NCBI GenBank assembly: GCA_002839505.1
Contig: PGYE01000001.1
Location: forward strand, 62,001-126,000
DNA from: Candidatus Peregrinibacteria bacterium HGW-Peregrinibacteria-1
GTDB taxonomy: Bacteria; Patescibacteriota; Gracilibacteria; UBA1369; LOWO2-01-FULL-3
DNA length: 64,000 nt
Direction of reading: 5' to 3'
The notes below the pieces were generated by a model. That model searched no databases, was not told where the DNA came from, and saw only the letters and a program-made list of their open reading frames with translations. Each line of letters opens with the position of its first letter. The stretch's first letter is position 1. Positions 4,582 through 41,230 of the stretch are shown piece after piece. A program made the position numbers and the translations under genes.

Positions 4582-5424
4582 TTAACCTTTCCTAAACCAT
4601 AACATAAACCGCAACAAGCCCCAAATCATAACAAAAATACCGCCAAGTACCGTAATCACCGCGCCCCCAATCGACAAATCTCCCGCAAAAGCCCACCAAA
4701 ACCCCAAAAGACTTCCAACAAGCCCCATCAACACCGCATACACCAACACACCCATAAGGCTTCTGCTCAACAAATATCCTCCCGCCGCCGGCAAGGCAAA
4801 CAGCCCCAGCACCATAATCGACCCCATCACCTCAAACGCCACCACCGCCGTCAAAGTCACCAAAAACAAAATCATAAAATTCAAAAACCGCACCGGCATA
4901 CCAATCGAAACCGCAAACTTCTCGTCAAAAATCATCGTCTTCAACTCCTTATAAAACAAAGTCACAAACCCAAAATTCAATAAAACCGCGACCCCCAAGC
5001 TCCAAATCGCCCTCGGCCCCAAATCCACCCCAAAAAGCTCCAACCTATTAAACCCCGCAAACTCCACACTTCCATAAATCACCGCATCCTGATCCAAATG
5101 CACATTGCCCGCCACCCTTGAAATCATCAAAACCCCAATCGCAAAAAAAGCCGTAAACACAATTCCAATCACCGACTCCTTCGAAACTCTAATCCTCGTT
5201 GCCAAAAACTTCATAATCATCACCGCCAAAAACGCAAAAAGAAACGCAAACACCATAAAGAAAGGTGAACTCAAACTACTGACAATCAAAAACGCCACCA
5301 CAATCCCCGGCAAAACCGCATGCGAAATCGCATCCACCAACATCGCCTCTCTTCGCAAAAACACCAAAGCCCCCAAAAGACTACAAGAAATCGCCGCCAA
5401 AAAAACTATTATTAAAATGCTCAT
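4582..5424 (-). CDS. Metal ABC transporter permease (TroD/ZnuB/MntB family)
   Basis: 280 residues with about eight or nine hydrophobic segments and the family signature LVDAISHAVLPGIVVAF near the N terminus. It is the second inner-membrane subunit of the manganese/zinc importer encoded by the upstream genes. Its start overlaps the end of the preceding permease gene by 4 bp (ATGA). It has no C-terminal extension, unlike its partner. The membrane pair is probably a heterodimer, as TroC/TroD is thought to be. Confidence 0.9.
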   Translation of the reverse strand: MSILIIVFLAAISCSLLGALVFLRREAMLVDAISHAVLPGIVVAFLIVSSLSSPFFMVFAFLFAFLAVMIMKFLATRIRVSKESVIGIVFTAFFAIGVLMISRVAGNVHLDQDAVIYGSVEFAGFNRLELFGVDLGPRAIWSLGVAVLLNFGFVTLFYKELKTMIFDEKFAVSIGMPVRFLNFMILFLVTLTAVVAFEVMGSIMVLGLFALPAAGGYLLSRSLMGVLVYAVLMGLVGSLLGFWWAFAGDLSIGGAVITVLGGIFVMIWGLLRFMLWFRKG

Positions 5425-6674
5425 GAAATGATTTGTTTACCATGTGGATCAACTTTCGGATTACCCAACATCTTCTCCAACCTCACCACCATCTCATCCG
5501 TCAAAATATGCTCCATATCTTCCGCCTCCAAATGCACCTTCCCCGCATCCATACTCAATTTATTCGCCAAATACACCTCCCACAAACGGTGCTTCTTAAT
5601 CAGCTTCCTTCCAAACTCCAATCCCCCTTTGCTCAAAACCCATTGCCCCCCCACAAACTTCACAAGCTTCTTCTTAACTAAAGCCCTCCAAGCCACCAGT
5701 TTCACCAAGACTCCCCCTTTCACCAAATCCTTCTTCACCGTCATCTCAGGGCAATCTCCACTTTCCATCATTCGATAACAACTCAAAACCGCATTCTCAT
5801 AACTCACCCTCACCCGATATCTAAACCCCTCCAACATCTTCATCAAAAACCCCTTCTTACTAAACAAAACCACCAAAATAAAAATCAAACTCAGTACCAC
5901 CACAATACTCGCACCCGTCGGAACATCCCGATACATCACGCTCAAATAAGCTCCAGTCACACCCCCAATCATCCCAAAAGTCACACTCCAAAGCACCGTC
6001 GCCCACAAACTATTTGCCAAAAACAAAGCCGTCACCGCCGGCGTAATAAAAAGCGCCGCCGTCAAAACTACTCCCACCGCCTGCAAAGAAATCACAATCC
6101 CAAAAGAAAAAATTACCGTCAAAAGCACCTCGTTAAAACGATGATTCACGCCCATAACATGCGCATAGTTACGATCAAAAATCATCAGTTTAATCTGCCT
6201 CCATTTAATTAAAACATGCAAAACACCAAGCCCAAACACCGTACCAATCAAAACCACATCCAGCTGCAACATTCCCGCCGCCTGCCCAAAAATAAAATCA
6301 TTGATCCCCGATGGTGAAACATTCTCCATTCTCTTCAAATAACTCAAAAACAAAATCCCAATACCAAAAAACCACGACAACACCACCGCCATCGCCCCAT
6401 CCATCTTAATCCGCGTCGACGCCACAATTTTATCAATCAAAAGCGCACTAATCATCCCACTCACCAACGCCCCCAAAATCAAAATCGGCAAATTCTTCTC
6501 ACCCAAAAAAATAAACGACAACACAATTCCCGGCAAAGCCGCATGCGAAAGCACATCTCCCAAAAGCCCCTGTTTCCTCAACACCGCAAACACCCCCAAA
6601 AGACCGCCCAAAGCCCCCAAAAGCAGACTCCCCGCCATCACATAAACTCCGTTAACAATACTAAAAATCCCCAT
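5421..6674 (-). CDS. Metal ABC transporter permease with C-terminal DtxR-type regulator domain
   Basis: 417 residues, about 140 longer than a plain permease. Residues 1-275 are a TroC/ZnuB permease (GDVLSHAALPGIVL motif, multiple membrane helices). Residues about 300-417 form a winged-helix-like stretch followed by the metal-binding/dimerisation domain of DtxR/MntR proteins: the HRLWEVYL helix, the EAEDMEHILTDE segment, and the LGNPKVDPHGKQI end. This fusion occurs in some manganese transporters. The cytoplasmic domain probably senses the imported metal and gates the transporter rather than binding DNA. It lies 6 bp behind the ATPase gene and overlaps the next permease by 4 bp. Confidence 0.88.
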   Translation of the reverse strand: MGIFSIVNGVYVMAGSLLLGALGGLLGVFAVLRKQGLLGDVLSHAALPGIVLSFIFLGEKNLPILILGALVSGMISALLIDKIVASTRIKMDGAMAVVLSWFFGIGILFLSYLKRMENVSPSGINDFIFGQAAGMLQLDVVLIGTVFGLGVLHVLIKWRQIKLMIFDRNYAHVMGVNHRFNEVLLTVIFSFGIVISLQAVGVVLTAALFITPAVTALFLANSLWATVLWSVTFGMIGGVTGAYLSVMYRDVPTGASIVVVLSLIFILVVLFSKKGFLMKMLEGFRYRVRVSYENAVLSCYRMMESGDCPEMTVKKDLVKGGVLVKLVAWRALVKKKLVKFVGGQWVLSKGGLEFGRKLIKKHRLWEVYLANKLSMDAGKVHLEAEDMEHILTDEMVVRLEKMLGNPKVDPHGKQIIS

Positions 6675-7434: not shown

Positions 7435-8355
7435 TTAGTTTTTTAACTTCGAAATCTCAAAAACATTATGCCTCACCATCCCCACATAAGTCCCAGCCTC
7501 ACTACCGACCGGCCCCATCGCATCACTGAAAAGCTCTCCCCCAATCTCTACCTCAAAACCACGCCCCATCACACCTTCACGCAAAGCATTCATTGACCTC
7601 TGCGAAACACTCGACTCCACAAAAATCAACGGCACCTCCTTCTCCACAATAAAATCCACCAACTCCTCCAAATCCTTCACCCCATATTCCTGCACAGTAT
7701 TAATTCCCTGAATCGCCTCCACCTCAACTCCATAAGCCCTCCCAAAATATCCAAAGGCATCATGCGCCGTCACCAGCACTCTCCTCTCCACAGGTATTTG
7801 CTCAATTTCACCTCTTACCCACTCATCCAAAGCCATAATTTCTTGAAAATATCTCTCAGCATTAATTGCATATTCCTCAGCACCTTCCGGATCAACTTCA
7901 CTCAACTTATCGCGAACGCCCTCAATCGTATCCGCCCAAAGAACCAAATCAAACCAAATATGCGGATCATTCTGCCCATCAAAACTCAAAAGCCTACTCT
8001 CATCCAAAAATTCACCCGTCCCAAACGCCCGCCCATCCTTCGCCATCGACTCAAAAACATCAACCATCTTCCCCTCCAAATGCAAACCAACATAAAAAAC
8101 CACATCCGCCCGCTGCATTGCCCTCATATCTCCGGCCGTCGGCTGATAAGCGTGTGGATCAACATTCGCCCCCATCAAAGCCTTCACCTCCACACGCTCC
8201 CCCCCCACATTCTTCACCATATCCGCCAACATCCCCACCGTCGCAACTACCTCAACTTTCTCATCTCCCAAAACATCCCCATCACTACTACTAGGCGCAC
8301 ATCCCAGCAACGCGAAACTTGCCACCAAAACCACAAGAAACTTTAATCCTTTCAT
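7435..8355 (-). CDS. TroA-type manganese/zinc-binding lipoprotein of ABC importer
   Basis: 306 residues. A signal peptide ends in the lipobox LLGC (Cys19), so the mature protein is anchored outside the membrane. Predicted metal ligands are His68 (DPHAY), His132 (DPHIW), His198 (TAHDAFGYF) and Asp278 (GGELFSDAMG). This is the same His-His-His-Asp set, at nearly identical spacing, as Treponema TroA (H68, H133, H199, D279), which binds Mn2+ and Zn2+. The FVESS segment found in the manganese-specific PsaA group is also present. First gene of the five-gene operon and the one behind its promoter. Confidence 0.92.
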   Translation of the reverse strand: MKGLKFLVVLVASFALLGCAPSSSDGDVLGDEKVEVVATVGMLADMVKNVGGERVEVKALMGANVDPHAYQPTAGDMRAMQRADVVFYVGLHLEGKMVDVFESMAKDGRAFGTGEFLDESRLLSFDGQNDPHIWFDLVLWADTIEGVRDKLSEVDPEGAEEYAINAERYFQEIMALDEWVRGEIEQIPVERRVLVTAHDAFGYFGRAYGVEVEAIQGINTVQEYGVKDLEELVDFIVEKEVPLIFVESSVSQRSMNALREGVMGRGFEVEIGGELFSDAMGPVGSEAGTYVGMVRHNVFEISKLKN

Positions 8356-27350: not shown

Positions 27351-28727
27351 TCAATTCCGCTTAACATCTCCATATGCCTCACCCCCTCGAGCTATCCTAT
27401 GAATTGCAAAGTACACCAGAATCCAAAAAATCAAAGAATTCTCTTCAAGCGTATAAGGAGTATCAACCAAACCATGTAAAAGCGGATAAGCTAAAACCAA
27501 AAAATAAAGATTTGAATTGTTCAGAAAACCACCCACTATTCCCCAGCCATAAATCAATAAGATTAATACCAACCCCAAAATTCCAAGATCCGACCAAAAA
27601 TTTATAACCAAATTGTGTGGATGAGGCGGCACCTCCTCTACTGGAACTGGAGACTCCAAAATCATATTTTGATTTTGCAAAAAATAACTCTGGTAATTGC
27701 CAGGACCTAGTCCACTAACAAAATTATTCTTTAAAGCAAATTCATTAACATCGTAAATCTGCAAACGACGAACTATCGAATTAGGCTTACTATAATCTGC
27801 TGTCCCAAAAAGAATTTGAAGTTTTGGTGAATCCCACTGACTCAACACAAATAAACCTAAAATTACAGGAGCAACAAACAAAGAAATAATCTTCGCCCTC
27901 CTAGGTAATTTTAAAAACGCAAAGATACCAACCAGAAATAACAAAACTAAAATTGCAGTATAAGACTGCGTTAAAAAAATCACGACTCCAAACACCAACA
28001 ATGCAACCGCGTTCATGATTTTCATAGCAGGCCTTTTTATCTTCCCAAATTCAACAACAACAAGAAGCAAAAGCGGTCCAAAAAGATAAGCTAACCAGTT
28101 GGCACTTTCAGCTCTCAAATCCAGAAATGGATCAATATATGGCCAAAGACTTCGTCCTAAAAAATCATGTGTTGCTCCTGGTAGTAAATGTGCAAAACTC
28201 TGGACGATAATCAGTAACCCAAAAACAGCGAAAGTTAAGATAAAACTCTGCTTCAAAAGTCTGAATTTTTCACCATCATTAACCGTTAAAAACAGAAAGA
28301 AAAAGAGGATAAAAGGTTGAATATAATTATTAACTACTTGAAACTTAAAAGACTTAATATAAGGATAAATCGACTCATAATTAAGGTAAGAAAGTAAAAT
28401 ACTAAAAAACAGCAATGACCCAAAAATAAAAACTAAAATCGTAGCAAATTTATTCTTAACTAAAACACTTTTGATTTCTTCCGCTCTCAAGCAAACAGAA
28501 ATAATGGAAACTACTACAAACAAAATCAAGAAATAGCTAAAAAAACTCGAGAAATCAAAGTAAGCTCCAGCCTCAAAAAACCTGTATCTATCCAAATCGG
28601 ACCAAAAATAATTATGAAAACGAAAATCAATCAAACTCAAGATAATCGCCAACGGCAAAATCACCAAAAGTAAACTGTGTACTTTTGATACTAACAAACT
28701 AAGCTTTGATAATATCTGCATATTCAC
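27351..28727 (-). CDS. O-antigen ligase/polymerase-like membrane protein
   Basis: 458 residues with about eleven membrane segments. The large periplasmic loop near residues 335-375 contains GLGPGNYQSYF and the PHPHNLVINFWSDLGILGL motif characteristic of the Wzy/WaaL (O-antigen ligase) family. It presumably polymerises or attaches a surface polysaccharide. No other polysaccharide genes are adjacent. The DNA here is AT-richer and less C-biased than the flanks, consistent with a more recent arrival. Confidence 0.82.
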   Translation of the reverse strand: MNMQILSKLSLLVSKVHSLLLVILPLAIILSLIDFRFHNYFWSDLDRYRFFEAGAYFDFSSFFSYFLILFVVVSIISVCLRAEEIKSVLVKNKFATILVFIFGSLLFFSILLSYLNYESIYPYIKSFKFQVVNNYIQPFILFFFLFLTVNDGEKFRLLKQSFILTFAVFGLLIIVQSFAHLLPGATHDFLGRSLWPYIDPFLDLRAESANWLAYLFGPLLLLVVVEFGKIKRPAMKIMNAVALLVFGVVIFLTQSYTAILVLLFLVGIFAFLKLPRRAKIISLFVAPVILGLFVLSQWDSPKLQILFGTADYSKPNSIVRRLQIYDVNEFALKNNFVSGLGPGNYQSYFLQNQNMILESPVPVEEVPPHPHNLVINFWSDLGILGLVLILLIYGWGIVGGFLNNSNLYFLVLAYPLLHGLVDTPYTLEENSLIFWILVYFAIHRIARGGEAYGDVKRN

Positions 28728-28759
28728 TCTTAAATAACATCAAGCGATACAACCAGCAG

Positions 28760-28786
28760 ACTATAAGTCGAAATATGACTTGTCAA
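28760..28786 (-). promoter_or_regulatory. Possible promoter of the O-antigen ligase-like gene
   Basis: Minus strand: TTGACA (28786-28781) and TATAGT (28765-28760), with a short 15-bp spacer. Confidence 0.5.
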
Positions 28787-28903
28787 CAAAAGGTTTCGAT
28801 AAATACTTTTCTATACGCCAAAAGAAAATAACCTCCCAATAAAACCGCCGTCATCTTCATATAAATTTCACAGAATTCATAAATAATAACAATCGGCACT
28901 ATA

Positions 28904-29980
28904 TCAGAGTCCCAGCAAAAACGCCTTAATTATCTTCACATAATCCTCCAAGCTAGAAATAGAAACCCATTCTTTGTCAGTCCCTATTCCATCCCCGATA
29001 GGACCAAATTCGATTCCGTCACATCCAACCGCCGCATAATGCCTCACATCTGATGCCCCTTGCGCTCCATAAACCCGCACCTCTTTACCCAATTTTTCCT
29101 CTACAACCTTTTTCAAACTCTGCAAATAATAATTATCACTATCAACCTGCAATGCTGCCTCATTCTCAACAACTTCAAACTCAAAATCTTCATCCAAAAG
29201 CCCTTTGATATCATCAATTATCTTATCTTTATCCTCAGGAATATACCTCACATCCAAAAGTACTTCTCCATCATCCGGAATCTTATTAAACGAATAATTA
29301 CTAGTTCCAATCTTCGCCAAATTCACAGTCGTGACCCACCCTTCACTACTCGGAATCGGATATTGCAACTTCAGTCTATTTAAAAAATCGTTTATTTTCC
29401 AAAGTGCATTTTCTCCTCTCCAAGGGTAAGCACCATGAGCCGTTACTCCTTTACAAGAAATCTTTATCAACAAAATTCCTCTCGCTTTATTCGCAATGTT
29501 GAAATTTGTTGGCTCTCCTGCAATTACAAAATCGGCACGAACGCCTTCACTAATTTGATATTTCGTGCCGTTAAAACCACCTATTTCTTCATCAGTAACA
29601 AGCTGTATCGCCAAAGGATAATCCACTAAGTTTGCCACCTCTCTAAAGGCAGCTATCAGACATACAGCATTCGCCTTCATGTCCATTGAACCAACTCCAT
29701 ATAGACGATCACCTTCAATAATTGGCAAATATTGAAAATCCTTACCGGGAATAACATCCAAATGAGCATTTAGAATTATTTTAAACCTTTCAGGAATTTC
29801 TGATGAATTATAAACAAGAACACTCTTCACTCCTTCGCTGTCAAAACGCTTAATCTTAAATTCCGATAACTCCTCCAAAGCCAATTCCAAGATAGCTTCA
29901 AGTTCCTTTGTATTTTCAGGATTAGATTTTATCTCAATAAAGCGTTTTGACAGCTCAACTATATTTTTTGACATACTCAT
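28904..29980 (-). CDS. M20-family peptidase/deacylase (ArgE/DapE-like)
   Basis: 358 residues from the ATG at 29980; a TTG at 30007 overlapping the previous stop is the alternative start. Zinc-site motifs: NAHLDVIPG, GSMDMKA, the catalytic VTDEEIGG and the GEPT segment, then GVTAHGAYP in the dimerisation lid and GAQGASDVRHY. The usual last metal ligand, a His in the GxxxxHxxDE region near the C terminus, is replaced: the segment reads GDGIGTDKEW. One metal site may therefore be lost. Second gene of the attenuated operon; substrate unknown. Confidence 0.85.
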   Translation of the reverse strand: MSMSKNIVELSKRFIEIKSNPENTKELEAILELALEELSEFKIKRFDSEGVKSVLVYNSSEIPERFKIILNAHLDVIPGKDFQYLPIIEGDRLYGVGSMDMKANAVCLIAAFREVANLVDYPLAIQLVTDEEIGGFNGTKYQISEGVRADFVIAGEPTNFNIANKARGILLIKISCKGVTAHGAYPWRGENALWKINDFLNRLKLQYPIPSSEGWVTTVNLAKIGTSNYSFNKIPDDGEVLLDVRYIPEDKDKIIDDIKGLLDEDFEFEVVENEAALQVDSDNYYLQSLKKVVEEKLGKEVRVYGAQGASDVRHYAAVGCDGIEFGPIGDGIGTDKEWVSISSLEDYVKIIKAFLLGL

Positions 29981-30003
29981 ATAATTTAAAAAAATACATC
30001 TGT

Positions 30004-31383
30004 TCAATCACTTATTTCAGCATGAACCGTGTCACCATTCCCGTGATTGCGACCAGCCTTAAATTCTTCTGACGAGGTTGGCATTAAAGACCTAAATCCA
30101 GCAATAAAAGTCGGTTTACCGTTAGCCATTCCCATAAAATTCCTATCAACATAAGCGTAAGTTGTTCCGCTTGATTCGTCAATCACAGTTGGAATTTCAA
30201 ATTCAGGTTGAATTACGTAAGCACCTCTTGTAGATATACCCTTTCTCAATGCACTCCTCATTTTACTGTCATTCAGAGCACCTCTAACATGTCCATAACA
30301 TCCGTATGATGCCTTCATTGGCTTGGCACGAAGCTGTGTTTCACCAGTTTCCACCTTCAAGGGACACACCTCTCGCCCTTCCAAAAAGCCTACAAAAGTA
30401 TCCGAAAGTCTCGCTCCCTTTTCATAATCGGCATAGGCTCTCTCCCGTTTAATATGCCCACTAAATCCTGTTGAATAGAGATCTAATTCCGTGCCGATAT
30501 CATATCCCATACCCATTACTGACAAATAGGCTTTGGTATCATTTATTTTACGATCAAAATCCATCCCTGGGGCATCAACATTAAAGGTTAATGCCTTTGC
30601 CTTAATAGCACGCCTTATTTTATCTATAGCAAGAAGTGGATTAGCTACTTCAATTTTTGGATTTCTAAGTTTTGCAATCGGCTCCGAAGACCTTACATAT
30701 AATAAGTAATCGCTCACTCCATTATTTGCCTCCAAATGTTCCAAAAATTCGCTAGGCCCCATTAATTTATCAAAACCCGAAAGGGCGACCACCTCGTCAT
30801 CCGCCAACATTTCACCATCTCGTTTTCCAAACTCAAGCTCGCGCATTCCTCGATGTTTGTCATCCGTTACTGCCAAAAGCGCAATTTTCATATTGTGACG
30901 AAGACGAATCTCATTCAACAAATCGCGAAATCTTAAACTAAAATTAGATTCGCCATTCAACCCATTAGAAAACATTTTCCCCAACAATTGGTACATCGCC
31001 AGAGAGTTTTCAATCTCAAAAATTCTACCCTTTAGTACCGATATAACTTCGTCCAAACTCAGATTTTCGGACATGTTTAGAAACACATCAGGTAAACCCA
31101 CCATATCAATTTGTACAGCATAGTTGACTGGCCCACCATCAGGCCCGACCAGGCAACTTTCATAATCTGACTCCGCCTCTCTATTCTTCTCAATCAAAGG
31201 AACAAAGGCTTGATTATATTCCTCATAAATCTTCCCCAATGCCCTAATCACGATCTCGGGATATTGAACTTTATATTCGGGCATGATCTTGTAATGATCT
31301 ATAGAAGATTTCAGGCCATTCCTCGTTTCTACCGGACCTAGCTTTCTCACCACATCAGAAGGTGAATCAACAGCTTTATTCAT
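30004..31383 (-). CDS. Uncharacterised protein, possibly ATP-grasp-like, under attenuator control
   Basis: 459 residues, soluble. I do not recognise a family with certainty. The last ~130 residues have an ATP-grasp-like order: a glycine/lysine loop (KASYGCYGHVRG), a strand ending in a Gln-Pro-Glu motif (AYVIQPEFEIP), an Asp/Arg strand (YVDRNFMG), and a closing N-x-GDTVHAEI. VANPLLAIDKIRRAIKAKA in the middle recalls the NP...DK segment of such ligases. It is followed by an M20 peptidase gene with a 4-bp overlap if the TTG start is used. The promoter, leader peptide and terminator upstream indicate control by aromatic aminoacyl-tRNA supply. A ligase acting on an amino acid or peptide is a guess. 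Confidence 0.75.
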   Translation of the reverse strand: MNKAVDSPSDVVRKLGPVETRNGLKSSIDHYKIMPEYKVQYPEIVIRALGKIYEEYNQAFVPLIEKNREAESDYESCLVGPDGGPVNYAVQIDMVGLPDVFLNMSENLSLDEVISVLKGRIFEIENSLAMYQLLGKMFSNGLNGESNFSLRFRDLLNEIRLRHNMKIALLAVTDDKHRGMRELEFGKRDGEMLADDEVVALSGFDKLMGPSEFLEHLEANNGVSDYLLYVRSSEPIAKLRNPKIEVANPLLAIDKIRRAIKAKALTFNVDAPGMDFDRKINDTKAYLSVMGMGYDIGTELDLYSTGFSGHIKRERAYADYEKGARLSDTFVGFLEGREVCPLKVETGETQLRAKPMKASYGCYGHVRGALNDSKMRSALRKGISTRGAYVIQPEFEIPTVIDESSGTTYAYVDRNFMGMANGKPTFIAGFRSLMPTSSEEFKAGRNHGNGDTVHAEISD

Positions 31384-31410
31384 AATTATTTGGGTTAAAT
31401 AAATAAAACT

Positions 31411-31443
31411 AAAAAAGGCCGGACCCCAGATGGTCCGACCTTT
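31411..31443 (-). terminator. Attenuator terminator before the 459-residue protein gene
   Basis: On the minus strand AAAGGTCGGACC and GGTCCGGCCTTT form a 12-bp stem (one G-U pair) with loop ATCTGG and a run of six T. It ends about 28 bp before the start codon. The upstream segment CAGGTGGTTC (31498-31489), inside the leader peptide gene, can pair over 10 bp with GGACCATCTG (31436-31427), which would break this hairpin. GAACTTTCTG (31556-31547) can in turn pair with that segment at 9 of 10 positions. This is the 1:2, 2:3, 3:4 layout of ribosome-mediated attenuators. Confidence 0.85.
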
Positions 31444-31463
31444 GTTGTGATAAACTTTTTAGC

Positions 31464-31583
31464 TTAACTCTTCATCCTAACAAAAACAGAACCACCTGTG
31501 GAAAATGATCCAAAAAACCAAAAATAGAACGCACTTGCGCTCATCACAGAAAGTTCAATCCTTGTTTGCTTTGATAAATTCAT
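31464..31583 (-). CDS. Leader peptide with aromatic codon run (attenuation)
   Basis: 39 residues, too short for routine gene calling. Codons 19-24 read Phe-Tyr-Phe-Trp-Phe-Phe (31529-31512), with two more Phe codons later. The ATG lies about 20 nt behind the predicted transcription start, and the stop is 21 nt before the terminator stem. A ribosome stalled on the aromatic run for want of charged tRNA would cover segment 1 and leave segment 2 free to form the antiterminator; a ribosome reaching the stop would cover segment 2 and allow termination. Phe is the most represented residue, so tRNA-Phe is the likeliest signal, with Tyr and Trp contributing. Confidence 0.82.
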   Translation of the reverse strand: MNLSKQTRIELSVMSASAFYFWFFGSFSTGGSVFVRMKS

Positions 31584-31609
31584 TACTACTAATAGTTAAA
31601 ACCACCAAA

Positions 31610-31638
31610 AAACTACAACTGATCATCAATAGTGTCAA
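31610..31638 (-). promoter_or_regulatory. Promoter of the attenuated operon
   Basis: Minus strand: TTGACA (31638-31633), 17-bp spacer, TAGTTT (31615-31610). The start near 31603 gives a leader RNA of about 220 nt that contains the leader peptide and the terminator. Confidence 0.75.
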
Positions 31639-32035: not shown

Positions 32036-33754
32036 ATGGATTTCATAATTCCCCATCTCAACAAATATCTCGCCACCAAACACCCCTACCTCGGAGACCT
32101 CAAAGACAAAACCTTTACCGAAATCACGCAAATCATCGATCTCTATTTAAGCAAACTCACACCGCACCCCAAACACCCTTTCAATAACATTATTGATCTA
32201 TTCCGACAAATACCGGGAAATTTTTCCGAATTCTTCAATCTCCAAAAAGACCTCCCCGGACTTAACCACATCGTCAGACACGGCCTGATCAAAGAAGTCA
32301 CCATTCACGACAAAAAGTTCATCATCAAAAAAGAAAACCCATCCAAACCGGGACGCTTCGAAAAAGAACAACAAAATATTGAAAAAGTTGCCGATAAAAT
32401 ATCCCTCACTCCACCCATAAAAGACGCCGCCGGCCACACCATCAAACTCCAATCCCTCAATTATCTAGGCTCCATCATCGACCACACCCACAACTTTCAA
32501 TATTCAATCACCCAACACCAACCAGGCCCCACCCTCGAAGAACTCCTATTAAAAGAATCCCATCCCCAATCTCGCCAAACCCTCCTCCAGCATGTTCGCC
32601 TCATTTTCGACACACTCTCAGAGCTCGGCATATATTGGGGAGACATGGCCCCTCGCAACATCATAGTCGATGAATCTACCGACCTGACAACCTACTACCT
32701 CTTTGACTTTGAAAAAACCGACATATACGACGCCCCACTTACAACAGAACAAAAAATCAATCTCTGCCGCGGCCCAATGTGCGTTGAAGAATTTGGCGCC
32801 ATCTGCGAATTGACCGAACTCACCAGCACCTTCTCCCCATACTTCAACCCCGACAGCTGGGATACTGAATCAAAAAAAGCCATATCCGTCTCCTCGCCAA
32901 AACGAGAACTGATGACAATTTTTAAACATCACAATATCAACCACATCACCGAAGGAAGCTACAACCTCCTCGAACAAGAAATCATCAATGTCCGCCTCCC
33001 CCTCACTCACCCCGACACAAAAGAAAAATACTTCCCCTTAAACATAAACTTCAAAATCGACCACTACTTCGGACCCGAATACGACCGCCAAGTAACCGAA
33101 CTCTTCCTCTATGCCAGAAAACACAATTTTTTCCCCGACACCATCAATATTCTCAACACCCTCCTTCAAGAATATGAACACCAAATCGAGATTGATAGTC
33201 TCATTTCTCGACTCGAACAAACCCCCTACAACAGCTTCTCCGCCAACAAAATACGCCACAAAATCCAAACTCTAATCACTCACCTATCTCTCGCCACCAA
33301 GAGCCTCCCCAAATTCATCGAAACCATCAGTTTTCTCTCCTATATAACATCCACCGACAAACTCCACTATGACCTACTAATAACCAATCCCCTCAACATT
33401 GATTTAATCAGCAAACTCTCCGCCATAAAAAATCACTTCACCGACCCACTCACAATTCTTTTGATTGGAAGCACCTCAAAAAACAACCATAAACCCAGCT
33501 CTGATCTCGACATCATCATCTTGGATCACCAAAAAACCCACTCCAGAGAAATACAGCTAATCCAAGACAGCGAAAAACTCTCCCAGATAATCAACAAACC
33601 TATCGAGCTTTGCCACTATCTCACCCCCTCTCAATTCTTCGAACAAGCTAAAAGAAAGCCCGAATTTCTCGCACAAATACATCACAACATCGTCATCAAA
33701 GACGATCAAAACCTTCAAACTCTTATATCCAGACATTTAACCACCACCCAATGA
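32036..33754 (+). CDS. Kinase-like/nucleotidyltransferase fusion protein
   Basis: 572 residues, two recognisable parts. Residues about 80-235 resemble an aminoglycoside phosphotransferase/RIO-type kinase: a Lys in FIIKKE, the catalytic loop IYWGDMAPRNIIVD (Asp203, Asn208) and the metal-binding DFE (Asp225). Residues about 470-560 are a Pol-beta-type nucleotidyltransferase with IGSTSKNN (Gly478-Ser479) and SSDLDIIIL (Asp490, Asp492). The middle is unassigned. The stop overlaps the start of the aminotransferase gene by 4 bp. Together they suggest modification of a small molecule or a biosynthetic function; the substrate is unknown. Confidence 0.78.
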   Translation: MDFIIPHLNKYLATKHPYLGDLKDKTFTEITQIIDLYLSKLTPHPKHPFNNIIDLFRQIPGNFSEFFNLQKDLPGLNHIVRHGLIKEVTIHDKKFIIKKENPSKPGRFEKEQQNIEKVADKISLTPPIKDAAGHTIKLQSLNYLGSIIDHTHNFQYSITQHQPGPTLEELLLKESHPQSRQTLLQHVRLIFDTLSELGIYWGDMAPRNIIVDESTDLTTYYLFDFEKTDIYDAPLTTEQKINLCRGPMCVEEFGAICELTELTSTFSPYFNPDSWDTESKKAISVSSPKRELMTIFKHHNINHITEGSYNLLEQEIINVRLPLTHPDTKEKYFPLNINFKIDHYFGPEYDRQVTELFLYARKHNFFPDTINILNTLLQEYEHQIEIDSLISRLEQTPYNSFSANKIRHKIQTLITHLSLATKSLPKFIETISFLSYITSTDKLHYDLLITNPLNIDLISKLSAIKNHFTDPLTILLIGSTSKNNHKPSSDLDIIILDHQKTHSREIQLIQDSEKLSQIINKPIELCHYLTPSQFFEQAKRKPEFLAQIHHNIVIKDDQNLQTLISRHLTTTQ

Positions 33755-35163
33755 ACTCATTACAACTCGCCCAACTTCTAACACAAAAATACAAAACGGA
33801 AACCCACAAACCCAAGAATATTTCGAGAAATCAAAATTATCTCACCCCTAACATCAGACCTACCGAAACCTACATCTACCAAAGCACCCGAGCAACACTG
33901 CACTCCAACAAAGGATCAATCCTCGACATCTCTTCCATGACTGTCAACACCATCCTTGGCCAAAACGACCCCTGGGTCAAAGCCAACCTCATTGCCTACC
34001 TTCAATCCGACCGCCCCTCCTTTCTATCAACGCGTTTCGGGAGCGAATACTACTACAAAACCGCCAGACTGATAGCAAAACATTCATTTATCGACAACCC
34101 AGTCGTTAATCATCGCCAATGCAACGGCTCAGATGCCACCGAACTCGCAATTCTTGCCGCCTACAACGCCTCCAGTAAACCCCACAAAACCCTAATTTCA
34201 TTTTATGGCTCCTACCACGGCCAAAACCTCACCAGTTACTTCGTATCCGACCTTCAACGACACAATATTTTCCTGGTAAACAACACCCAAGCCAACATCA
34301 AGTTTTTCCACCCACCCACAAATGAAATCGCCGAAAACCAAATCCTCGAAAACATCCACCATCTGCGGAAATTCACTTTCGGAATAATTCTCGAACCCAT
34401 TCAAGTCAACAACAACATCTATACATTTTCACAAAGATTCCTCCAAAAACTGAAAGCCCTCTGCGATCAAGAAGACATCGCCCTAATATTCGACGAAATA
34501 CAAACTGCCTACGGATGGCTCGGAAAAATGACCGCCTCCGAATATTTCAATGTCAAACCCAACATAACTGCTCTCAGCAAAGGAATAACCAGTGGCTTCG
34601 GCCCCCTTGCGGCCATTGTTGCCAATAAAAAATATCAGGAAATTCCCTACGGCACTGGCGAAAAAACCAATGGCGCCGATATCCGCTCTCTAGTAGCCTC
34701 AACCGCCGTATACCAAAGACTCCTCGGAATCCCCGAAAGCCAAATCCCCCACAATCTACCTGACTACCTACATCAAGAATTATCCACCGGCCTGCTCGCC
34801 AAAGTTCCTCAGAAGTCCCGCATAATCACCCACTACACCAATAAAATTCAAAAAACTTTCTCACCAAAAGACCTAAAAATCACCGGGCTATTACTTCTCT
34901 GCGGTCTAACCTTTACCGACAAATCCAAAGCCCAAAAAGCCTACCAGTTATTAATGGATCAAAACATCTACATCCGGCTATCCGCAAACACACTCATTAT
35001 AAAACCGGCCCTGACAATTAACGACCAAGAGCTCAGTTATGCTCTCGAGAAAATTTTTATCACCCTTAAGCAAATACTCCCACACAGCCAAGCCCCAAAC
35101 ATTCCAAAACCCGCAACACAGCAATTAAAACCACATTACTCCCATTTATCAACTTTGTTTTAA
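33751..35163 (+). CDS. Class III PLP-dependent aminotransferase
   Basis: 470 residues. PLP site: the SYHG motif (154-157), Asp248-Glu249 and Gln251 in IFDEIQTAYGW, and the Schiff-base lysine Lys277 in TALSKGITSGFG. Class III enzymes use omega-amino or glutamate-semialdehyde-like substrates. Translationally coupled to the kinase/nucleotidyltransferase gene. Compared with typical ~430-residue members it has a Pro-rich tail of about 30 residues. Exact substrate cannot be told. Confidence 0.9.
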   Translation: MNSLQLAQLLTQKYKTETHKPKNISRNQNYLTPNIRPTETYIYQSTRATLHSNKGSILDISSMTVNTILGQNDPWVKANLIAYLQSDRPSFLSTRFGSEYYYKTARLIAKHSFIDNPVVNHRQCNGSDATELAILAAYNASSKPHKTLISFYGSYHGQNLTSYFVSDLQRHNIFLVNNTQANIKFFHPPTNEIAENQILENIHHLRKFTFGIILEPIQVNNNIYTFSQRFLQKLKALCDQEDIALIFDEIQTAYGWLGKMTASEYFNVKPNITALSKGITSGFGPLAAIVANKKYQEIPYGTGEKTNGADIRSLVASTAVYQRLLGIPESQIPHNLPDYLHQELSTGLLAKVPQKSRIITHYTNKIQKTFSPKDLKITGLLLLCGLTFTDKSKAQKAYQLLMDQNIYIRLSANTLIIKPALTINDQELSYALEKIFITLKQILPHSQAPNIPKPATQQLKPHYSHLSTLF

Positions 35164-39288: not shown

Positions 39289-39822
39289 ATGAAAAAAATT
39301 CTCGGAATTCACGGCTTCATGGGAAACGAAAAAGTATATTTTTTTCCGTGGATAAAATCTCGTTATCAAAATCATGCTGAAATCCATATTCCCAGCTTTC
39401 CAAATCCAAAAACACCTCACATCCATGAATGGACCGAAACCATTAAAGAGCTCCCCGAAAACGATTTCGACCTCATAATCGCGCACAGTCTTGGAGGAAC
39501 TTTTGCTCTCAGCCTCATCATGCGAGATATCATAAAAACCAAACACCTCATCACAATCGGCAGCTCTCCAGGACCAAAAGAGACCTCCGACATGAGCACC
39601 TTTCTCAATTACCCCTTAGAATTCCCCAAAATAATGCCTAAAATTGAAAGCTACACCATCGTACATTCCTTCGATGACCCCTATACATACCCTGAATACG
39701 CCATCACCAGCCTCAAACACAGCAAAGGCACCGGCATTTTCTATGCCGACCAAGGACACTTTGAAACCCTGCAACTACCAAAAGAAGTCACCACAATCAT
39801 CGATCAAATTATCTTCGCTTAA
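39289..39822 (+). CDS. RBBP9/YdeN-type serine hydrolase
   Basis: 177 residues, alpha/beta-hydrolase of the RBBP9 (DUF1234-like) group. Nucleophile Ser in AHSLGG, acid in HSFDDPYTYP, catalytic His in DQGHF. The start HGFMGNEKVYFFPW is the oxyanion region. Cytoplasmic; substrate unknown. It runs with the lipoprotein gene and overlaps the converging ATP-grasp gene by 14 bp. Confidence 0.88.
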   Translation: MKKILGIHGFMGNEKVYFFPWIKSRYQNHAEIHIPSFPNPKTPHIHEWTETIKELPENDFDLIIAHSLGGTFALSLIMRDIIKTKHLITIGSSPGPKETSDMSTFLNYPLEFPKIMPKIESYTIVHSFDDPYTYPEYAITSLKHSKGTGIFYADQGHFETLQLPKEVTTIIDQIIFA

Positions 39823-41230
39823 TCCTCGCGCTCACATCATTTTTCAACCCCTCTATATCATCCCTATTTGAGGTGGCAACCACAAATAGTCCCGCTCCTT
39901 GATGATGATTATATCCCCACGGTAAAACTGCATGCCCGTTTTTGACAAGACTATCCGCCGACATAAACTTATCAACACCAGAAGCAAAACTTGCAAAACT
40001 TGCAAATTCCCCCGTCTTCACAAAATGCAAAGAACTATAAACCGCTTCTCCCGTCTGCTCCTCGAGCCAAAGCTTCGCCATCGCCGTCGCCGTATTTGCC
40101 GTAGGCCGTAAACCGGGATCAATCACCTTAAGCTCCCCCTCAGCCGTTTCGATATAATCACACATCACAAATCCAAACGCCTTCAAAACACTACGATAAT
40201 TATCCGCCAAATCAATAATTACCCTCTCCAACCTCTCATCTATCTCATGAATATCAAACGGAGAATTTATACTGCTCTGATAACTCCCATTCTCGTCAAC
40301 AAATTGCTCACTCAATGTCACCACATGAATTTTATCACTATCAGGGGTTACAAATATTTGAAAATTACGATCCACACCATCCACATGCGGCTGAATAGCA
40401 ACAATCGAATTTAACCCATAAACCATTACATCTTGCTTCAACCCCTCAACCAATTTAGTTAGCTCAACAATCGAAAGCGGCTCATTAACACCATTAACCT
40501 TCTTGAAACACTTCTTTACTCCTTCGCCGGAATTTTCTGTGTTATTCAATTTAATGTAAAACAGCCCACTCCTGAGCTTATCCACCAAATCCTTAACATT
40601 AACTTTTAAAAGAGAAATTTCTTCATAATCAGCAGCGAATGAAGAAAGAAGATTTACTCTCTTGGAATTACCGGCAGTCATTGCAAAATTACTGTTCACG
40701 ACATCCCTATCCCAGCAAGACGGCAAATCATCTACTGAATAAATTGGCATCCTTAAATCTCTTGCGGCATATAGAGACTCATCTAAATCAGCATAAAAAT
40801 AATCCCCCAATACCCCCATTTTCTTCATCGTAGTAGCAAAAGACCCATCCGAATCCTTCGGGAAAATAACCATATTCCTAGCATCCTTCAATGCCCCTGT
40901 CGATAACCATGACATTGCCAATGGAAAAGGAAGATCTCCTCCAACACCATGCTTCTCTGGCAACGCATATGAAGGCCGAAACCTCTCCCTACCCCTATTC
41001 TGAATAGCAATACCTCTCCCTACTCCAAAAGCTCCCGTTGGCAAACCTCTCTGGCCCCATTTACTATCATTCCAAATACCTGAAACCAACACACCGTCCA
41101 AAAGATGCAACAACTCACCTCGAGTAGCTTGAATCAATCTCTCACTATTTCCAACAAGCCCTCCTTCTACATTAACCTCATCACCTTCTCGACCTTCAAC
41201 ACTAACTGAATGATTCAACCCCTTTTTCAT
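39809..41230 (-). CDS. ATP-grasp ligase, PGM1-like
   Basis: 473 residues. The C-terminal ~250 residues are an ATP-grasp domain: ATP-binding Lys in FYIKLNNTENSGEG, AIQPHVDGVDRNF, and the metal-binding end MCDYIETAEGELKVIDPGLR followed by PTANTATA. The first ~180 residues resemble the pre-ATP-grasp region of the PGM1-type peptide ligases (MVIFPKDSDGSFATTMKKMG). Such enzymes join a carboxylate to an amine, often making unusual peptides. Acceptor and donor are unknown. It is transcribed alone from its own promoter. Confidence 0.78.
   Translation of the reverse strand: MKKGLNHSVSVEGREGDEVNVEGGLVGNSERLIQATRGELLHLLDGVLVSGIWNDSKWGQRGLPTGAFGVGRGIAIQNRGRERFRPSYALPEKHGVGGDLPFPLAMSWLSTGALKDARNMVIFPKDSDGSFATTMKKMGVLGDYFYADLDESLYAARDLRMPIYSVDDLPSCWDRDVVNSNFAMTAGNSKRVNLLSSFAADYEEISLLKVNVKDLVDKLRSGLFYIKLNNTENSGEGVKKCFKKVNGVNEPLSIVELTKLVEGLKQDVMVYGLNSIVAIQPHVDGVDRNFQIFVTPDSDKIHVVTLSEQFVDENGSYQSSINSPFDIHEIDERLERVIIDLADNYRSVLKAFGFVMCDYIETAEGELKVIDPGLRPTANTATAMAKLWLEEQTGEAVYSSLHFVKTGEFASFASFASGVDKFMSADSLVKNGHAVLPWGYNHHQGAGLFVVATSNRDDIEGLKNDVSARIKRR

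Follow-up and report, generated by a model that had tools for sequence, protein, structure and literature searches.

What does a transcription attenuator that appears to read aromatic codons control when none of the genes behind it belongs to a recognised aromatic pathway? This question is raised by a 64,000-nt stretch of contig PGYE01000001.1 of Candidatus Peregrinibacteria bacterium HGW-Peregrinibacteria-1 (hereafter the window), in which an initial annotation, made from the letters alone, had proposed a trp/phe-type attenuator in front of a 459-residue protein of unknown family and an M20 hydrolase. The reading reached here is that the leader is very probably a ribosome-mediated attenuator that senses charged aromatic tRNA (mainly Trp/Phe, possibly Tyr), and that it controls an operon of an ATP-grasp amide ligase and a DapE/ArgE-type M20 hydrolase.

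The whole attenuator, composed of a leader ORF, an intrinsic terminator and three pairings that exclude one another, occupies positions 31408-31583 (-) of the window (Table 1). Its parts had been claimed beforehand and were borne out one after the other: the 39-codon ORF with its Phe-Tyr-Phe-Trp-Phe-Phe run, recovered from the sequence and the ORF call, encodes MNLSKQTRIELSVMSASAFYFWFFGSFSTGGSVFVRMKS with the aromatic part AFYFWFFGSFSTGG; the terminator just before the 459-residue gene has a 12-bp stem with 7 G-C pairs, a 6-nt loop and a T6 tract, three T of which lie inside the stem; and, when checked by hand, arms 1 and 2 pair as GAACTTTCTG:CAGGTGGTTC (1:2, 9 of 10), arms 2 and 3 as CAGGTGGTTC:GGACCATCTG (2:3, 10 of 10 including two wobbles), the third pairing (3:4) being the terminator stem itself. 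The leader stop codon lies 20 nt before the terminator, and a further 30 nt separate the hairpin from the ATG of the 459-aa gene. The promoter proved weaker than had been stated: the -35 box is a perfect TTGACA, but both -10 candidates, TGTAGT (15-nt spacing) and TAGTTT (17-nt spacing), are poor, and 2% of random 65-mers match the best promoter score upstream of the leader ORF. The leader has no clear Shine-Dalgarno sequence and two candidate starts, of which the second, an in-frame ATG (codon 14), cannot be excluded as the true one.

Table 1. Window features with their positions, and the aromatic (or corresponding) part of the leader peptide at each ligase locus.
Feature	Position	Strand	Remarks
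Probable -35 box TTGACA of the leader promoter	31633..31638	(-)	-10 weak (TGTAGT or TAGTTT)
Leader ORF	31464..31583	(-)	39 codons (26 if the start is the in-frame ATG, codon 14)
Arm 1 (GAACTTTCTGTG)	31545..31556	(-)	pairs with arm 2
Regulatory codon run Phe-Tyr-Phe-Trp-Phe-Phe	31512..31529	(-)	codons 19-24, between arm 1 and arm 2
Arm 2 (CACAGGTGGTTC)	31489..31500	(-)	pairs with arm 1 or terminator arm 3
Intrinsic terminator hairpin, arms 3 and 4	31414..31443	(-)	U tract to 31408
459-aa ATP-grasp carboxylate-amine ligase, undescribed family (predicted)	30004..31383	(-)	AlphaFold2 model, fold matches; homologues 40-50% identical in Patescibacteria
M20 family metallohydrolase, DapE/ArgE-like	28904..29974	(-)	start TTG 30007 also possible; Pfam, NCBIfam, PDB profile search
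O-antigen-ligase/Wzy-like membrane protein	27351..28727	(-)	PF04932; possibly cotranscribed
Leader, window			FYFWFF
Leader, L068			LLLFMVWI
Leader, L070			LYHYHG
Leader, L071			IIFWLTF
Leader, L072			LFVWMIY
Leader, L073			LFAWVFCFSF
Leader, L074			AWFSYFFAF
Leader, L102			VYFIALLRW
Leader, L104			NNFWYHYHP
Leader, L105			NNYWFFFHP
Leader, L106			RFIWILL

Is such a leader confined to the window? A direct search with the 459-aa protein found no homologue in genome contigs, viral contigs, phages, plasmids or 575 relatives. Homologues were reached via the neighbouring M20 gene, for which a two-sequence alignment led to 17 loci from genome contigs, in 10 of which the gene immediately preceding M20 encodes a homologue of the 459-aa protein; a ligase profile added five genomes (G1182, G1199, G1400, G1354 and G847). 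Short matches to the leader peptide in other Patescibacteria were dismissed as chance matches. Complete upstream sequence is available for 13 ligase loci, L069, L076 and L084 being cut by contig ends. An aromatic leader ORF and a terminator occur together in 11 of these loci, neither occurs in two (L078 and L103), and in none is only one of them present; a hairpin kept where the leader had been lost, which would have refuted the proposal, was thus not met with among the 13 loci, and leader and terminator are gained or lost jointly. The 11 leaders stop 20-43 nt before the terminator and share no common peptide sequence. In L070 the plausible frame reads Tyr-His-Tyr-His, without Trp, and in L073 the attenuator lies one gene farther upstream, the operon being headed by an amino-acid racemase (PF01177, 1.1e-34). 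TTGACA is found exactly before 7 of the 10 other ligase-operon leaders, and with one mismatch before the remaining 3.

The two alternative states of the leader were examined by folding. Folded alone, the window leader adopts the 1:2 pairing and the terminator, at -58.7 kcal/mol compared with -39.8 +/- 3.7 for dinucleotide shuffles (z -5.1). Its 2:3 pairing is stronger than in codon shuffles (p 0.001-0.007), and the same comparison of antiterminator energy gives p<0.05 in 10 of 11 ligase loci (Fisher p ~2e-14), the exception being L072 (p 0.056-0.068); the 36 nt leading up to arm 2 hold a concentration of aromatic codons (combined p 4e-4). With the ribosome modelled as a mask, in the 11 leaders of ligase operons and those of two further M20 operons (L082 and L083), a mask on the aromatic codons of a transcript ending at arm 3 gives P(2:3) of 0.76-1.0 in all 13, and a mask on the stop codon gives P(3:4) of 0.83-0.99 (1.0 in L082) in 12, the exception being L070, whose predicted structure remains 2:3 even with the ribosome at the stop codon. 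The window values are P(1:2) 0.80 without a ribosome, P(2:3) 0.76 with a stalled ribosome, and P(3:4) 0.91 with a ribosome at the stop codon. In equilibrium folding of the full-length leader, the terminator usually or often wins despite the mask of a stalled ribosome, so that switching would depend on co-transcriptional timing; in these models, this is as expected of a device that works by timing. The trp/phe layout ascribed to the window is supported by the comparative loci, where the alternative pairings persist without sequence conservation.

The proposed sequence of events would be as follows. When aromatic tRNAs are charged, the ribosome would traverse the leader ORF and sweep arm 2, allowing the terminator to form and transcription to end before the ligase gene. 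In a shortage of Trp or Phe, the ribosome would stall at FYFWFF and cover arm 1, leaving arm 2 free to pair with arm 3, and RNA polymerase would read through. Without translation, the 1:2 pairing would form and the terminator would act. Translation, stalling, termination and the response to starvation are inferred, in the absence of transcript or ribosome-profiling data.

Could the leader ORF be nothing more than the chance product of a U-rich spacer, and the hairpin an ordinary terminator or a riboswitch-like attenuator blind to translation? In favour of this, codons for aromatic residues are rich in T, no clear ribosome-binding site precedes the ORF in the window, and the aromatic criterion taken alone is lax: of the ordinary 18-42-codon ORFs of these loci, 10-35% contain a Trp together with three or more aromatics within 12 residues. 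The evidence is the joint occurrence with terminator and pairings. A rule-based scan was run over the window, its relatives and 33 viral loci (viral contigs matching the FYFWFFG pattern, used only as control sequence), amounting to 1.07 Mb of strand sequence and 350 genes of at least 200 aa. It returned 29 gene-proximal T-tailed hairpins, and all small ORFs with at least three F/W/Y in 12 residues before such hairpins precede either ligase-M20 operons or the M20 operons of L082 and L083. The leaders had been partly picked by eye before the scan, which later recovered them by rule. No aromatic leader was seen at M20 relatives that lack the ligase (in Bacillota, Chloroflexota and G031/L077). Compared with the ligase proteins, the 11 leaders are enriched 4.6-fold in Trp and 2.0-fold in Phe, so that the aromatic bias first noticed in the window holds for these two residues but not for Tyr, nor is His enriched. 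Aromatic clustering and the presence of Trp in the 11 leaders exceed what is seen in shuffles preserving either base or codon-position composition (for clustering, none of 2000 in either set), so that U-richness does not account for the clustering; the joint gain and loss across the 13 loci also counts against a chance ORF. A riboswitch finds no support either: an Rfam search of the window at gathering threshold returned only two tRNAs and no family (riboswitch or T-box) at the leader, and the lack of conservation of leader sequence and RNA structure between loci counts against a ligand-binding riboswitch. A chance ORF or an attenuator blind to translation is considered quite improbable, and regulation by attenuation is strongly supported. 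Computation has established the anatomy, the co-conservation of leader and terminator, the Trp/Phe enrichment, the conserved pairing potential and the ligase fold described below.

Alternatively, the leaders could encode arrest peptides of the TnaC or Erm type, which sense a drug or metabolite, the ribosome being held by a small molecule rather than by an uncharged tRNA. The leaders are hydrophobic and aromatic, with exactly one Trp in 10 of 11, and several then have a GG or GS stretch. An arrest peptide needs a conserved peptide motif or stall position, however, and none is seen across the leaders, and two further leaders of these bacteria fit tRNA sensing. In L068:2412-2540, an Ile/Val-rich leader, MQKIVLKIIEIISIVIIGRQFFVRVCI (IIEIISIVII), and a terminator precede citramalate synthase (745 bits), with a pairing p of 0.019, in what is a predicted branched-chain attenuator of a Moranbacterium. 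In G1182, about 9 kb from its ligase operon, the leader MNRAFYFWFYFTPYSGGVLVA (FYFWFYF) and a terminator (L109:1120-1237, pairing p 0.005) are followed by a 75-aa ORF, DAHP synthase, a fused prephenate dehydrogenase/dehydratase, chorismate mutase and an aminotransferase (L109:1120-5198). Its AFYFWFYFTPYSGGVLV resembles AFYFWFFGSFSTGGSVFV of the window and the layout of arms and terminator is alike, the difference being that the G1182 leader controls DAHP synthase, the fused prephenate dehydrogenase/dehydratase and chorismate mutase. This genome carries the DAHP synthase cluster though chorismate synthase was not detected there. With leaders of this kind before citramalate synthase and DAHP synthase, arrest by a small molecule is regarded as very improbable, and sensing of charged tRNA is retained. 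From these two putative attenuators, classical attenuation appears to operate in Patescibacteria, and the aromatic design to serve a recognised aromatic pathway.

A second kind of M20 operon is predicted to be under aromatic attenuation as well. Leaders with NFFFFF (L082:4770-7080) and FTFFF (L083:4560-7074), each with a terminator, precede unknown first genes encoding 349-aa and 391-aa proteins, respectively, followed by M20, and the two M20s form a supported sister pair, as a sister clade. Upstream in L082 there are also a radical SAM gene and a member of the enolase superfamily (PF13378/PF02746), which may be an N-acyl amino-acid racemase. L102 has a second attenuator (7465-7579), whose terminator hardly differs from the one at 4788-4807; the gene behind it encodes an unknown protein of 245 aa. 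In L103, one of the loci without an attenuator, a perfect inverted repeat, GGTTTTGACG / CGTCAAAACC (5785-5835), surrounds the ligase start codon and may provide translational control in place of the absent transcription attenuator.

How do these leaders compare with those of Escherichia coli? As in the trp, pheA and pheST attenuators, a short leader ORF containing a regulatory codon run, the 1:2, 2:3 and 3:4 pairings and a terminator precede the first gene. Whereas the trp leader of E. coli ends ahead of segment 2, the patescibacterial leader ORF crosses arm 2 and has its stop codon 20-43 nt ahead of the terminator. The patescibacterial leaders also mix Trp and Phe codons, and their target is no known biosynthetic gene. 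In most ligase loci other than the window, the -10 box ends 6-12 nt before the leader ATG, so that many of these leader mRNAs are probably nearly leaderless, again unlike those of E. coli; the window, with 28 nt, is an exception. Up to a genome survey of 2010, which added a case from Firmicutes, leader-peptide attenuators were known only from Proteobacteria and Actinobacteria (PMC2965389), and a literature search found no report of one in Patescibacteria. The mechanism is known in kind; within the reach of the tools, the host phylum, the target operon and the ligase family are new, the sequence evidence extending attenuation across several patescibacterial lineages with reduced genomes.

What, then, does the first gene of the operon encode? 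The 459-aa protein has no Pfam or NCBIfam match and no significant match in PDB sequence or profile searches; the supposition that it is perhaps ATP-grasp-like and could be placed by profile search is met only by structure. AlphaFold2 reached a pLDDT of 35.6 without an alignment, and 86.8 with nine homologues (pTM 0.89), giving a three-domain ATP-grasp fold. The Z score to 7uka is 15.7. The best structural matches, to YgiC, YjfC, glutathione synthetases and glutathionylspermidine synthetase, span Z 15.7-12; individual Z scores are 15.7 for YgiC, 14.7 for YjfC, 13.4 for human glutathione synthetase (GSS) and 13.3 for glutathionylspermidine synthetase (GspS), and Foldseek matches include 3n6x and the fungal Cp1B (9cjn). 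Likeness to these enzymes lies in the predicted fold, over ~300 residues (Z 11-16), while identity is ~10% and the protein belongs to no Pfam family. In the nine-sequence alignment, K354/P355, G361-H365, Q392, E394 and D413/R414, as well as Q91/D93/E123/E125/N126, are invariant and fit the nucleotide- and Mg-binding pattern, without having been superposed on an active site. The model thus confidently predicts a ligase of the YgiC/YjfC/glutathione synthetase/glutathionylspermidine synthetase fold, its chemistry and substrates being inferred. The ligases of L070, L084, L104 and L105 have an N-terminal extension of ~450-550 residues, with no Pfam match above cut-off in the two scanned (L070 and L084). 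The window also encodes a 473-aa orphan (39809-41230, (-)), ATP-grasp-like by motifs read by eye and without a Pfam match; it was considered as a paralogue of the 459-aa ligase, for which there was no support, the two being not detectably related.

The second gene of the operon was confirmed as an M20 hydrolase by its catalytic (PF01546, 2.9e-23) and dimerisation (PF07687, 4.2e-13) domains, and its best PDB profile matches are 2rb7 and DapE entries. It is DapE/ArgE-like, yet falls under every specific cut-off shown, its best score against the NCBIfam succinyl-diaminopimelate desuccinylase equivalog being 158.7 bits for a cut-off of 381. An ATP-grasp ligase is likewise paired with an M20 deacylase in LysX/LysK. 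The operon shares with LysX/LysK and the DapE/ArgE N-acyl amino-acid pathways the combination of such a ligase with an M20 of DapE/ArgE type; it differs from LysX in a ligase fold nearer to GSS/GspS (Z 15.7 vs 5.6), and in its regulation by aromatic codons; nor did an amino-group carrier protein catch the eye next to the pair, though without a dedicated search.

The role of this pair is inferred, in the absence of enzyme data. As the operon would be switched on by a lack of aromatic amino acids, it most likely yields a product that provides rather than consumes them, and it probably supplies or salvages them, by an enzyme chemistry that remains an inference. The earlier suggestion of an aromatic-linked pathway outside the standard ones is supported by the Trp/Phe-enriched leaders across ligase loci, the regulatory codons serving as a functional clue that ties an unannotated ligase family to Trp/Phe supply. 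None of the 13 pair-bearing genomes tested yielded chorismate synthase or TrpA (controls positive in 14 of 14), and prephenate dehydratase was found in 3 of the 13. Aromatic auxotrophy of all pair-bearing genomes was a first reading, tempered by the latter result; as most are metagenome assemblies, single absences are weak.

Might the attenuator be real, and the operon make a conjugate containing Trp or Phe, such as a pseudodipeptide, instead of supplying aromatics? The ligase fold resembles that of Cp1B, which couples a dicarboxylic acid to L-amino acids (PMC12568646), and those of YgiC and YjfC, which are described as peptide-spermidine ligases in work cited by that article. An attenuator of such geometry, switched on when aromatics are scarce, would however have the wrong sign for a consumer, and the constant partner of the ligase is a hydrolase, joined in L073 by an amino-acid racemase. 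Synthesis of a conjugate is thus held to be unlikely, and aromatic supply remains the preferred reading. Ligase and deacylase, with the racemase in L073 and the enolase-superfamily gene near L082, suggest recovery via N-acyl or amide forms; aromatic amino acids would probably be recovered from such a form by the ligase, M20 and sometimes a racemase, which is a hypothesis. A broader proposal can only be put forward tentatively, as a possibility that may well prove wrong: an aromatic attenuation regulon in Patescibacteria, including an undescribed salvage of L-Trp/L-Phe from amide, N-acyl or D-forms (by ATP-grasp ligase, M20 deacylase and in places a racemase), in cells without detected chorismate synthase or tryptophan synthase alpha. 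How aromatic-deficient Patescibacteria obtain Trp and Phe becomes directly testable with purified enzymes.

The pair is hosted by Moran-, Roizman-, Azam-, Adler-, Lipton-, Kerfeld- and Beckwithbacteria, among others. The ligase family is rare and its occurrence scattered: in three groups it was met in 1/131, 2/397 and 7/374 genomes, and not once in those relatives of the window genome that were sampled. Beyond ligase and M20 no gene is conserved, and the PF04932 membrane protein of the window is absent beside the pair in other loci. GC content is 0.34-0.41 in the operon and mostly 0.43-0.50 in flanking genes; this low GC, together with the scattered occurrence, suggests horizontal spread of the ligase operon, an inference made without a ligase tree. 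Across 27351-31583 of the window, both GC and GC3 lie below those of the neighbours, which is consistent with horizontal acquisition. On the other side of the leader, 32036-35163 (+) encodes a protein that matches kinase-like and Pol-beta nucleotidyltransferase families, and next to it a class III aminotransferase.
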